Positions 5,141 to 18,430 of a DNA stretch of 64,000 nucleotides are shown piece by piece. Every line of letters begins with the position of its first letter. Positions within the stretch are counted from its first letter, which is position 1. Below the pieces are notes generated by a model. It did no database searches, had not been told where the DNA came from, and saw only the letters and a list, made by a program, of their open reading frames with translations. The DNA is from Nitrosomonas sp. Its GTDB lineage: Bacteria > Pseudomonadota > Gammaproteobacteria > Burkholderiales > Nitrosomonadaceae. The stretch spans positions 1-64,000 of the forward strand of contig JAMXAG010000007.1 of NCBI GenBank assembly GCA_024281675.1, written 5' to 3'. The position numbers were made by a program, and so were the translations under genes.

Positions 5141-5607
5141 AATTTGCAAGACCAATCATTTAAGAATTATTTCTCATTATTAATTATATACTTAGAATCT
5201 ATTATTAGCATTCTGTAACACTTAAATAAAACTTCACACTGTACTTATGTCGTAAGTCGTGTATAATTTTCCCACGTAGAATTCATTCGTTGAGAACTAT
5301 AACAATGACCTCAACTCAAAATTTGCTGCTTCAATAAGTGATCTCTGTGGTCTTGTCCTCTCTGTAAATTAATTACAGATATTCAAAGTAAGCACTTAGC
5401 AGAATTGATAATACGCTTTGCTAAAACTTGAATAACGCAACTCATGGGGATTGTCGCAATATATTGAGCTTAACGACCTAAGGATTTCTCGCTAAGTATG
5501 TGTACGCTAAAAATTAATCAATAGTGACACTATTTTTTCTCTTCGCATTCAGTACTCATGAATCAGCTTCATGTTCTATGGTATTGGTATCACAAAGGAG
5601 TTGAACT
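5141..5607. other. 467-bp intergenic region upstream of the PQQ-type dehydrogenase
   Basis: No gene of ordinary size is seen. A TATAAT hexamer at 5262-5267 is a possible -10 box but lacks a good -35. Just downstream, an ATG at 5305 opens a 10-codon frame (MTSTQNLLLQ, with three consecutive leucine codons). A 6-bp hairpin lies at 5362-5378. Together these could be a long leader of the following gene, which itself has a clear AAGGAG site before its ATG. I do not recognise a riboswitch. Confidence 0.4.
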
Positions 5608-6744
5608 ATGGTTTCAAATCAATTATTCATATTCAAGAACATCCGCTTCGCACGAAAATATTTCGTAATATTCACTATAGCAATTTTGCCCGTGTTATTC
5701 ATATCCGCTGAAATACAAGCTGGGGTACCTGCTGGATTCACGCAAACCAACATCATCAAGGGCCTGAACAATCCAACACGAATGGCGATTGCACCTGATG
5801 GCCGTATTTTTATTACCGAGCAAGCTGGACGCATCAAAATTGTGGAAAAAGGCCATCTACTGGCACAACCATTTCTAAATATCGCTACACGCGTTAATAG
5901 CCAGGGTGAGCGCGGATTATTAGGCATTGCCTTTGATCCAAATTTTTTGACAAATCAATGGGTTTACGTCTATTACACCAGCAAATCTCCGACTATCCAT
6001 AATCGCGTAAGTCGCTTTAAAGCCAATGGCGACACGGCGTTATCTGGCAGCGAAGATGTGCTGCTAGATATTCAACCATCCGGCTCTCAGACAAAACACA
6101 ACGGTGGTGCAATTGGTTTTGGAGCAGATGGAAAGCTCTATATTGCAGTAGGTGATGGAGACGTTCGTAGCAATGCACAGTCTTTATCAAATCTAAAAGG
6201 TAAAATACTGCGCATTAATAAAGATGGCAGTATACCGAACGACAATCCATTTTATCAAAGTGCTGTTGGTGTCAATCGCGCCATTTGGGCAAAAGGACTG
6301 CGTAATCCCTATAGTTTTGATGTACAACCCGGTTCTGGACGCGTTTATGTCAATGATGTCGGCGCAAACTCCTGGGAAGAAGTCAACCAAATCACCAAGG
6401 GCGCAAATTACGGTTGGCCAATCGTCGAAGGGAAAAGTAACGATACACGATTTCGTAATCCCATCCTCGCTTACAAACATAATAACACTGCACCTTGTTA
6501 CGCGATTGTCGGTAGTGCGTTTTACAATCCAATCAATGATCGATTTCCAAAAGATTATGTAGGCGATTACTTCTATGGCGATTTCTGCGGCGGCTGGATT
6601 CGTCGCTATGATATTGCAACGAAGAAATCATTTTCTTTTGCTTCCGGAATGGGCATGATCGTCGATATTCAAGTGTCTTCTGACGGAAACATGTATGTTC
6701 TAAGAAAAGAAAATGGAATAATGCAGATACGTTCAGGCAATTAA
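5608..6744 (+). CDS. Secreted PQQ-dependent sugar dehydrogenase-like protein
   Basis: This protein belongs to the soluble glucose/sorbosone dehydrogenase beta-propeller family (also the aldose sugar dehydrogenase YliI group), which oxidises sugars with PQQ in the periplasm. An N-terminal signal peptide ends near residue 38. Family motifs follow: RMAIAPDGRIFITEQAGRI, ERGLLGIAFDP, the metal/cofactor-region HNGGAIGFGADGKLYIAVGDGD, and the conserved RNPYSFDVQPGSGRVYVNDVG block with a following WEEVN. The length of 378 residues is normal. The start is supported by AAGGAG seven bases before the ATG. No PQQ biosynthesis genes are nearby, so cofactor supply and substrate are unknown. Confidence 0.85.
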   Translation: MVSNQLFIFKNIRFARKYFVIFTIAILPVLFISAEIQAGVPAGFTQTNIIKGLNNPTRMAIAPDGRIFITEQAGRIKIVEKGHLLAQPFLNIATRVNSQGERGLLGIAFDPNFLTNQWVYVYYTSKSPTIHNRVSRFKANGDTALSGSEDVLLDIQPSGSQTKHNGGAIGFGADGKLYIAVGDGDVRSNAQSLSNLKGKILRINKDGSIPNDNPFYQSAVGVNRAIWAKGLRNPYSFDVQPGSGRVYVNDVGANSWEEVNQITKGANYGWPIVEGKSNDTRFRNPILAYKHNNTAPCYAIVGSAFYNPINDRFPKDYVGDYFYGDFCGGWIRRYDIATKKSFSFASGMGMIVDIQVSSDGNMYVLRKENGIMQIRSGN

Positions 6745-16890: not shown

Positions 16891-16945
16891 GCAGGGACTC
16901 CGCCCCTGCATCCCGCAAAGGACAAAAAACAAAGATCAAAAATCA
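16891..16945 (-). repeat. T-rich tract plus GC hairpin directly behind the TIR-FGE gene
   Basis: Read on the minus strand, the TIR-FGE stop codon is followed by a T-rich stretch with repeated TTTTTGAT-like units. A GC-rich hairpin comes next, with arms GCAGGG and CCCTGC at 16891-16896 and 16904-16909 around a 7-base loop. The order fits either an unusual terminator or the initiation site and hairpin that lie behind variable regions in diversity-generating retroelements. In a normal intrinsic terminator the T run follows the hairpin, whereas here it precedes it. Confidence 0.5.
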
Positions 16946-18430
16946 AAAATCCCTAGCGATGCGAAAACCAAGGAGTTCGCCGGCCCAACCGCCGTCCCCG
17001 CCACGGTTAGCCGACCGCAGGCCCAGTGGACTGTTGAACCAAGAACCGCCCCGAGCCACTCGGCGAGCGCAATCGCCACCCTCCTTTTTCAACCACGCCG
17101 AGCCATCTGTCGGCATATTGTCATAATGGTCATGCCAACAATCCTGCATCCATTCCCACACGTTACCGGCAGTATCGTGCAACCCGAGCGCATTGGCTTC
17201 GAACGAACCCACTGGCGCGGTTTGTTTTCCACCCCACTCACTCCTGCAGCCATCGCAGTTGGCATTATTGTGACCAATTTCATCACCCCACCAGTAGCGC
17301 GTTTGCGTGCCTGCTCGTGCGGCGTATTCCCATTCTGCTTCCGTTGGCAAGCGATATGACTTACCGGTTTGATCAGATAACCATCTTACATAGGCTTGCG
17401 CATCGTCAAATGAAACGTTGATCACCGGTCGCCTGCCCCGTCCCCAACCTTGATCATGTGGTAATATACGTTGGGTATACTTGGCAAACGCATCGTACTC
17501 GTCGAACGTGACTTCATATTGACCAATTTCAAACGCATACGCGATGCTGACTTCATGTTGTGGACTTTCATTAGACTCTCGCCCAAGTTCTGTTCCGGGT
17601 GAACCCATCAGGAATTTGCCAGGTGGAATGCGCACCATTTTGGGTTCGATGACAGAAACTTTGGATTGCTCGGTGACCGGTTGAACAACTGGATCGGGAG
17701 TCGCCTGTTGCAGTTGTTCTGCAATGAGCGCTTGAGTTGGAGTTGTTTTGTTACGCACTGCCATACCGTCCATACCGATTTGCTCAATTATCCCGTTCCA
17801 TGGTTTTAACGTGTCCACCGGTTGAATAGGAATTGTCTTCGGTGGCATAACGATCAAGTATCCTCCCGTTATCAAAGTGATGCCGATCACACCTGCGATT
17901 ACCGCAAATCGTAGGTAGCTTGGTTTTCCCGGCTTTTCCGGTATCTTAGGTGTCTCTAGGGATAGCGCGCCCACGATTTTTTCCAGCGCTTTAATCAACT
18001 TGTCAGCATCGGTATGAAAACGGGGATGACTGGCAATTTCAAGCGCATGGCGCCGTATCAACGGTATCATGCATTCAGGCAATTGCGTCGGTTTTGGCAT
18101 TGTGGCACCACCAACCAACACCGGGATGACACGAATATTGCGCTCCAGTAAAGTGGTAATTTCGAGCCGCACCCAATCATCGGGATTATCCAAACGCCGT
18201 TGCCCGCTCGCATCGGCGATGTCCAGCCAGCGTTCTCCGATCAGTACCACGGCCACTTGTACCGCTGCCAGCTTATCTTTGATTACTTGATCAAAAACCT
18301 CACCCGGCTCGATTTGATCAATATCCATAAACACATGACCACGACCGAAATGACTGACCAACCGATCATATAACCGGCCTGCATAGGCTGCACTATCATC
18401 GCGGCGATAGCTAATGAAAATTTTGGACAT
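16943..18430 (-). CDS. TIR - transmembrane - FGE/C-type-lectin fusion; candidate DGR target
   Basis: This 495-residue protein has three parts. Residues 1-155 are a TIR domain (MSKIFISYRRDD, VFMDIDQI) with a WVRLE motif whose Glu90 matches the position of the catalytic Glu of TIR NADases. Residues 172-194 form one transmembrane helix. A variable linker leads to an FGE-sulfatase/SUMF1 fold at 265-495 (VRIPPGKFLMGS, LPTEAEWEYAARAG, GLHDTAGNVWEW, RVARGGSW, LGFRIARD). The FGE catalytic cysteines expected near GGSW are absent, so it is a binding module rather than an enzyme. Codons 457-495 resemble a DGR variable region. It is encoded just upstream of sdhB on the same strand. The function is unknown; a sensor or defence-type effector that senses a ligand outside the membrane is inference. 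Confidence 0.85.
   Translation of the reverse strand: MSKIFISYRRDDSAAYAGRLYDRLVSHFGRGHVFMDIDQIEPGEVFDQVIKDKLAAVQVAVVLIGERWLDIADASGQRRLDNPDDWVRLEITTLLERNIRVIPVLVGGATMPKPTQLPECMIPLIRRHALEIASHPRFHTDADKLIKALEKIVGALSLETPKIPEKPGKPSYLRFAVIAGVIGITLITGGYLIVMPPKTIPIQPVDTLKPWNGIIEQIGMDGMAVRNKTTPTQALIAEQLQQATPDPVVQPVTEQSKVSVIEPKMVRIPPGKFLMGSPGTELGRESNESPQHEVSIAYAFEIGQYEVTFDEYDAFAKYTQRILPHDQGWGRGRRPVINVSFDDAQAYVRWLSDQTGKSYRLPTEAEWEYAARAGTQTRYWWGDEIGHNNANCDGCRSEWGGKQTAPVGSFEANALGLHDTAGNVWEWMQDCWHDHYDNMPTDGSAWLKKEGGDCARRVARGGSWFNSPLGLRSANRGGDGGWAGELLGFRIARDF
16946..17062 (-). repeat. Candidate DGR variable region (last 39 codons of the TIR-FGE gene)
   Basis: The segment from RVARGGSW to the C-terminus has the layout of DGR variable regions in FGE-type lectins: a fixed RGGSW, then a run of odd residues (FNSPLG), the fixed LRSANR, a second odd run (GGDGGWAGELL), and the fixed GFR.AR end. 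Many codons in the odd runs end in C (TTC, AAC, GGC, GGC, GAC, GGC, GCC, GGC, CTC), as expected if they arose from AAC codons of a template by adenine-specific mutagenesis. No template repeat or reverse transcriptase is visible in this window. Confidence 0.5.

Follow-up and report, generated by a model that had tools for sequence, protein, structure and literature searches.

The window analyzed here, a stretch of 64,000 nucleotides of DNA from the ammonia-oxidizing bacterium Nitrosomonas, carries a TIR-lectin gene (16943..18430, minus strand) that is probably targeted remotely (in trans) by a diversity-generating retroelement (DGR) residing elsewhere in the same genome, here called DGR1, with the 3' end of the gene copied from the template of that element and altered mainly at adenines; as such, the gene would specify a hypermutable sensor. 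The end of this gene had been proposed as a DGR target in a first-pass annotation made from the sequence alone, which also called for a search of the whole genome for a template repeat, a reverse transcriptase (RT) and Avd. This search bore out the proposal, yielding on contig C1 an RT recognized by its RVT_1 match (C1:306537-307670, 377 aa), an adjoining 116-nt template repeat (TR1, C1:307612-307727) and an Avd protein scoring over its NCBIfam cut-off. The variable repeat had been placed at 16946-17062, which is the right region with a slight offset; the 113-nt repeat proper, designated VR3, occupies 16953..17065 on the minus strand.

The window gene is an intact open reading frame of 495 aa, with a TIR-TM-FGE/C-type-lectin arrangement deduced from Pfam, hydropathy and a low-confidence model. 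On the minus strand, it comprises a TIR domain (residues 4-114, 18089..18421; Pfam TIR_2 43.5 bits, cut-off 28), a predicted single TM helix (residues 173-194, 17849..17914; Kyte-Doolittle and low-confidence model) preceded by a Lys/Arg-bearing linker, and an FGE-sulfatase/C-type lectin domain (residues 263-493, 16952..17644; Pfam over cut-off, and domain model). The Kyte-Doolittle hydropathy maximum of 2.22 over 19 residues falls at residue 177. The full-length structure model, built from a 10-row alignment, had a pLDDT of 44 and was poor in the lectin half, so the topology of the protein rests on hydropathy, from which we infer an N-in/C-out orientation. The gene is flanked by sdhB-like and citrate-synthase-like genes on one side and by two short ORFs followed by a Tex-like gene on the other, these labels coming from reading of the neighbour sequences rather than from a database search. 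A total of 37 loci were found in the named genomes, with the closest named relatives being Nitrosomonas. Eleven loci were examined for the helix, and the count excluded L136, with its partial frame, and L155, the frame of which is broken. The nine TIR-lectin genes with usable frames come in two forms, a similar helix being present in five (L126-L130, hydropathy maxima 2.15-2.68) and absent from four shorter ones (L131-L134, maxima 1.26-1.43).

Alignment of VR3 with the DGR1 template (113 vs. 116 nt, with one 3-nt gap) revealed changes at 20/30 template adenines vs. 8/83 other bases (Fisher p = 4.8e-9); the expectation of the first-pass annotation that mismatches would be confined to template adenines is thus correct for the most part and not wholly. 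A longer stretch aligned with adenine-tolerant scoring gave 23/37 adenines vs. 11/100 others (p = 5e-9). Within the core of VR3 (template nt 16-75; 16991..17050, minus strand), 12/19 adenines and 0/41 other bases were changed. The 8 non-adenine differences are concentrated at the two edges and comprise 2/13 in the 15 bases of template nt 1-15, one beside the gap, the position of which varies with gap placement, and 5/20 in the last 26 nt (template nt 91-116; 16953..16978, minus strand), where an IMH-like initiation site is expected. For the two cis repeats of DGR1, the corresponding counts against the template were 15/31 adenines vs. 2/85 others (VR1) and 16/31 vs. 3/85 (VR2). As a control, the same test was applied to 30 lectin-domain stretches, yielding a lowest p of 0.011 and a next lowest of 0.05; these overlapping stretches were 116 nt long, 10 for each of three comparisons (window against cis target, the reverse, and the syntenic gene of another species, genome G024, against window), and in every set the final one or two ran into the repeat.

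The pattern extends to the codons. As remarked in the first-pass annotation, many codons in the variable runs end in C, with 9 of the 10 template AAC codons retaining C in VR3 (counted by eye), and the alternation of fixed motifs with variable residues at the C-terminus was also recovered. Among 12 Nitrosomonas sequences, zero entropy was found at residues 457, 460-463, 471-473, 476 and 488-490, vs. 2.36-2.86 bits at residues 465-467, 470, 475, 477, 479, 480, 482 and 484-486, all of which are on adenine-bearing template codons. These sequences were rows of a 32-row alignment (A2) that excluded, from the 37 loci, L152, L154, L155, L159, L160 and L162 (frame wrong or broken, distant sequence, or insufficient length). 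Residue 455, directly before the 116-nt template match, also reached 2.86 bits, and residues 483 (1.78 bits) and 459 (1.21 bits) vary without a template adenine. Fast evolution is general among lectin loops, and variation at the latter two residues would suit a scenario without a DGR, in which positive selection drove the ordinary divergence of an FGE-like loop that binds ligand. However, the adenine-specific pattern against a real template adjoining a DGR RT, the zero entropy of the fixed positions and the preserved third bases of the AAC codons leave this explanation with next to no probability, and it was dropped as contradicted by the RT, template, Avd, adenine bias and controls.

As to which template wrote VR3, the adenine count alone does not single out that of its own genome, since VR3 scored identically against the template of genome G093 (20/30 adenines and 8/83 others). 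The own template is favored by the T24 marker (TCT codon), at which VR3 agrees with its own template and that of G009 and not with the genus's other three, but not by position 112, at which VR3 agrees with the other four templates and not with its own. Besides VR3, the only matches to TR1 in the host genome (E<=1e-4) were TR1 itself, VR1, VR2 and the template of a second element, DGR2, with no other template for VR3 found in this search. DGR2 was rejected as the source of VR3, its template being 72% like that of DGR1 over 105 nt.

The RVT_1 search of the host genome (G000) produced two matches, both on contig C1. The DGR1 locus (L017, C1:300.3-309.0 kb) contains genes for a TIR protein, a MoxR-like ATPase, a 1062-aa lectin target, Avd and the 377-aa RT, together with the template and a 420-aa lectin target; Pfam matches in this locus comprise TIR_2, AAA_5 and FGE, the last on both the 1062-aa and 420-aa targets. 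Avd, RT and template are all open and intact. The Avd scored 91.7 bits with NCBIfam NF033474 (cut-off 80) and 60.3 with bAvd (cut-off 40), and no PDB match for it was found; the Avd profiles used were PF22296 and NF033474, with PF05635 matching nothing anywhere, controls included. The RT carries LGNLTSQ, which we take to be a DGR-type RT motif, and its nearest solved chains, 8ub7-8ube, are titled 'Reverse transcriptase' and presumably represent the Bordetella phage DGR complex. A MoxR-like ATPase upstream, two lectin targets of which one is long and the other short, and an adjacent TIR gene give DGR1 the layout of a clade 5A MoxR-type ternary locus; by gene layout, it resembles the clade 5A loci described in PMC10907252, which combine MoxR with a long and a short lectin target. 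The window gene and the template are far apart: the gene resides on contig C5 at a distance of 17 kb from one contig end, and more than 230 kb of C1 lie on each side of the template. In DGR2 (C1:519860-524656; L018 3861-8657), a TIR-nSTAND1-lectin target is accompanied by a template of its own and an RT, and by an Avd on the other strand that falls just below the cut-off (79 vs. 80 bits). A further locus of the same genome (L019 1378-7375; C12:239-245 kb) contains TIR, MoxR-like ATPase and two lectin genes, with lectin C-termini resembling a third template class present in G108 and G100; since DGR1 and DGR2 account for the only two RTs of the genome, L019 may be a further DGR locus that has been orphaned.

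A model of residues 255-495 (domain only, 32-row alignment) reached a pLDDT of 89.2, with structure matches to PvdO (5hha, TMq 0.87), formylglycine-generating enzymes and the Treponema denticola variable protein TvpA (2y3c; rank 31, E 1.8e-14). A C-type-lectin fold with the variable repeat at its C-terminus is therefore present in the window gene, as judged by Pfam, model and fold search. TvpA likewise is a DGR variable protein with an FGE-type lectin fold; it is a surface lipoprotein and is not known to carry a TIR domain. PvdO 5hha being the top match by both sequence and fold, one may read the protein as TIR joined to an enzyme of the FGE type or to a maturation factor resembling PvdO, and not as a sensor at all, but we find this very improbable: the C-terminus is hypermutated, the NCBIfam PvdO profile scored 190 on the window protein against a cut-off of 500, and TvpA shares the fold. 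In addition, the FGE catalytic cysteines are missing, as the first-pass annotation had pointed out, with no cysteine found in residues 455-495, the region where the catalytic pair would presumably fall. On the other end of the protein, the TIR domain matched SARM1 NAD+ hydrolase chains (E 3e-9), with residue E90, invariant across 10 TIR sequences, aligned with the SARM1 glutamate that we take to be the catalytic one; to judge from these alignments, the domain fits a TIR NADase or signalling domain with E90 as the candidate catalytic glutamate.

Based on the known DGR mechanism, we propose that the RT of DGR1 would copy the template RNA, placing random bases at adenines, and that the cDNA, with homology at both ends as its guide, would then take the place of the target's 3' end. 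In the protein, a C-type-lectin fold outside the inner membrane would present the variable residues as its ligand face, with the single helix crossing that membrane and the TIR domain in the cytosol, where the SARM1-like TIR, with E90 kept, may act on NAD+ or make a signal upon lectin binding. This arrangement would amount to a signalling receptor, and the window gene would accordingly be a hypermutable sensor in a defence-type pathway.

The first-pass annotation had left a choice between a target served in trans and a relic, and with the template on another contig, both remain for the window gene. Judged from sequence, the evidence shows past writing of VR3 by a template of this lineage and not present activity. 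Rewriting of the window copy is nevertheless still possible, at a shade better than an even chance: the intact machinery, the core free of non-adenine changes and an inverted repeat 43 nt downstream speak in favor, whereas the drifted 3' end, the 3-nt gap and the higher load of non-adenine changes (8/83 vs. 2/85 and 3/85 in cis) speak against. Over the template 3' end, VR1 matches at 20/20 and VR2 at 19/20 non-adenines, whereas VR3 differs at 5/20. This drift, together with the 3-nt deletion, would be in accord with a frozen relic, in which DGR1 or an ancestor wrote VR3, the initiation site drifted thereafter and the gene is now fixed, a reading to which we assign somewhat less than an even probability. 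The clean core (0/41) and the open, intact Avd, RT and template in the host genome argue against it. Moreover, according to the relevant passages of PMC3240598, a 21-bp part of the IMH in Bordetella phage BPP-1 normally has 5 mismatches with the template, next to five non-adenine differences in the last 26 nt of VR3, so drift of this kind need not by itself be disabling.

The GC-rich inverted repeat downstream of VR3 (16891..16909, minus strand) may be a terminator or a homing hairpin. Its exact pattern occurs once in the genome, and its DNA fold has a z of -2.35, with 6/200 shuffles folding as well. By eye, a similar GC-rich inverted repeat, in some cases imperfect, follows 8/11 targets of other genomes, both cis and trans (bearers in the 3' flanks of L064, L114, L081, L078, L079, L073 and L068); it is absent after G022 VRa and G006 VRa, partial in G016, and was not found after VR1 and VR2 of G000. 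The element after the window gene may be a plain terminator. The same passages of PMC3240598 place hairpins of the compared DGRs 4-34 bp from the variable repeat; with the BPP-1 mismatches, this means that neither the 3' drift nor the inverted repeat decides activity. As far as that source goes, BPP-1 resembles the present system in having RT, template and variable repeats, a 3' IMH with template mismatches and a downstream hairpin, but differs in its cis phage target, in a GC-only 14-bp element, which was not seen by inspection at the 3' end of VR3, and in hairpin distance (4-34 bp vs. 43 nt).

The gene of G024 (L064 4890-6374), from another species, is the same gene in the same place as window 16943-18430, with long aligned stretches of the neighbourhood being 90.8-92.6% identical, the first of which takes in some of the lectin. 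Compared with the G000 template, the G024 repeat is changed at 19/31 adenines and 4/85 others. It also differs from the window gene at most variable positions, so the conservation in relatives that would have refuted the first-pass reading is not seen in this species; no RT, Avd or template was found in G024 in template, Avd and RVT_1 searches. Between window and G024, the TIR part has a dN of 0.07 and dS of 0.52 (NG86; 0.09 and 0.28 by YN00) vs. a dS of 2.5 for the lectin body, and the G024 lectin body is close to the G000 cis target (dN 0.04, dS 0.44). These values argue for replacement of the lectin domain in one lineage, and we infer that the lectin domains of the two syntenic orthologues differ in origin.

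Such a difference in origin would also suit a repeat acquired not by trans cDNA homing but from a cis target of DGR1 through ordinary recombination, be it gene conversion or a domain swap. Third-base identity to the window gene rises from ~0.4-0.6 (VR1 gene) and 0.1-0.6 (VR2 gene) in the lectin body to 0.6-1.0 over the last 70 codons for both, with the raised identity beginning ~30 codons before the repeat, an extent not necessarily expected from homing alone. However, the step-up over roughly the last 60-70 codons also appears in VR1 vs. VR2, i.e. among the cis targets themselves, and other within-genome pairs show similar, noisier steps. At most adenine codons, VR3 encodes a residue other than those of VR1 and VR2, so a swapped repeat would have to have been rewritten later or come from a lost variant. 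In addition, a trans gene of G093 has a diverged lectin body despite 0/85 non-adenine changes in its repeat. Recombination thus appears to us an unlikely origin of VR3, and remote writing by DGR1 is the reading we carry forward.

Remote targets, TIR-bearing targets and Nitrosomonas DGRs are already published, and the window gene is a clear new remote target. In the passages of PMC10907252 considered, clade-5 DGRs of Thiohalocapsa PB-PSB1 diversify conflict-system sensors, with DGR 2 serving DGR 4/5 targets in trans, and Nitrosomonas is among organisms with multiple related DGRs; as here, the adenine-templated lectin targets have TIR, NACHT/nSTAND1 or MoxR partners, but a stand-alone TIR-TM-lectin target far from its DGR, and the Nitrosomonas locus in detail, are not described in those passages. 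The portions of PMC7517822 used here report 76 remote lectin targets in cyanobacteria and note TIR-like and TM-bearing variable proteins; like the window gene, these remote proteins have template homology at the 3' end, but kinases are commonest and targets were assigned by a 50% template identity threshold. Excerpts of PMC7159879 mention ternary-system lectins with templates elsewhere in the genome, and by its own excerpts, the survey of PMC8144416 would miss remote targets. Our literature search, covering titles, abstracts and selected passages, did not find a TIR-TM-lectin remote target described in Nitrosomonas.

Within the genus, DNA matches to the DGR1 template (E <= 1e-4) are present in 25/85 genomes. 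The RT occurs at 71-100% identity in 5/85 (G000, G006, G022, G093 and G009), all five of which hold the template, and RT matches at E <= 1e-20 number 12/85 in all. In G093, the genome of a related species, a 416-aa TIR-lectin gene on C80 differs from the genome's own template on C68 at 16/31 adenines and 0/85 others; this case and that of the window indicate that TIR-lectin genes are trans targets in Nitrosomonas. The remote copy in G009 differs from the template at 20/31 adenines and 12/85 others, and that in G006, split in two open frames, at 14/32 vs. 30/84, with the bias gone (p 0.28). We read the copies of G093, G009 and G006 as a series from fresh to decayed. In template-less genomes, 24 gap-free repeats (a set that excludes repeats with length differences and a second G090 copy) have 11-22 adenines changed each, with 20 of them showing 1-7 non-adenine differences from the nearest genus template and four showing 12-17.

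RVT_1 and Avd were searched in 19 genomes: G031 and, of the 20 genomes that match the template but lack a DGR1-type RT, 18; G100 and G108, which carry RTs of another class, were outside this set. Seven of the 19 had no RVT_1 match (G024, G016, G020, G090, G070, G079 and G075), and two (G071 and G016) had a sub-cut-off Avd. Most of the relative assemblies are drafts that could hide loci, so the firm machinery-less cases are the one-contig genomes G020 and G075. In G020 (L074, C1:1726-1731 kb), both diversified cassette targets are open, and ~330 bases stand where G022 (L077) holds Avd, RT and template; RVT_1, Avd and template searches of this single contig found none of the three. That relatives keep such genes where machinery was not found is what one would expect if the window gene were a relic. 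More tentatively, and as a rather doubtful extension of the remote-target reading, we speculate that Nitrosomonas may have a Toll-receptor-like class, with TIR inside, a single membrane helix and a hypervariable lectin outside, the tips of which are written remotely by a DGR; machinery would be gained and lost, receptors would persist in fixed form and whole lectin domains would be swapped between cis and trans targets, with a transient mutator thus giving rise to a heritable repertoire. In the window gene we have a clear example of remote DGR action on a TIR receptor encoded by a single gene, and the genus has intact, machinery-less and decayed versions. Two questions thereby become testable, namely whether the DGRs of bacteria supply immune-type receptors with variants and what becomes of diversified receptors once the mutator is lost.

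Two of the genomes exhibit DGRs in decay: G016 has an Avd remnant with an internal stop (C50:9124-9264, L165), and G071 has an Avd followed by a short RT frame (C3:11471-12665). In G093 (L081 ~8111, C68) and G022 (L077 ~5480-6638, C1), one cis target each goes out of frame inside its variable repeat. With the 3-nt deletion in VR3 and these frame breaks in mind, DGR copying may yield indels besides adenine changes.
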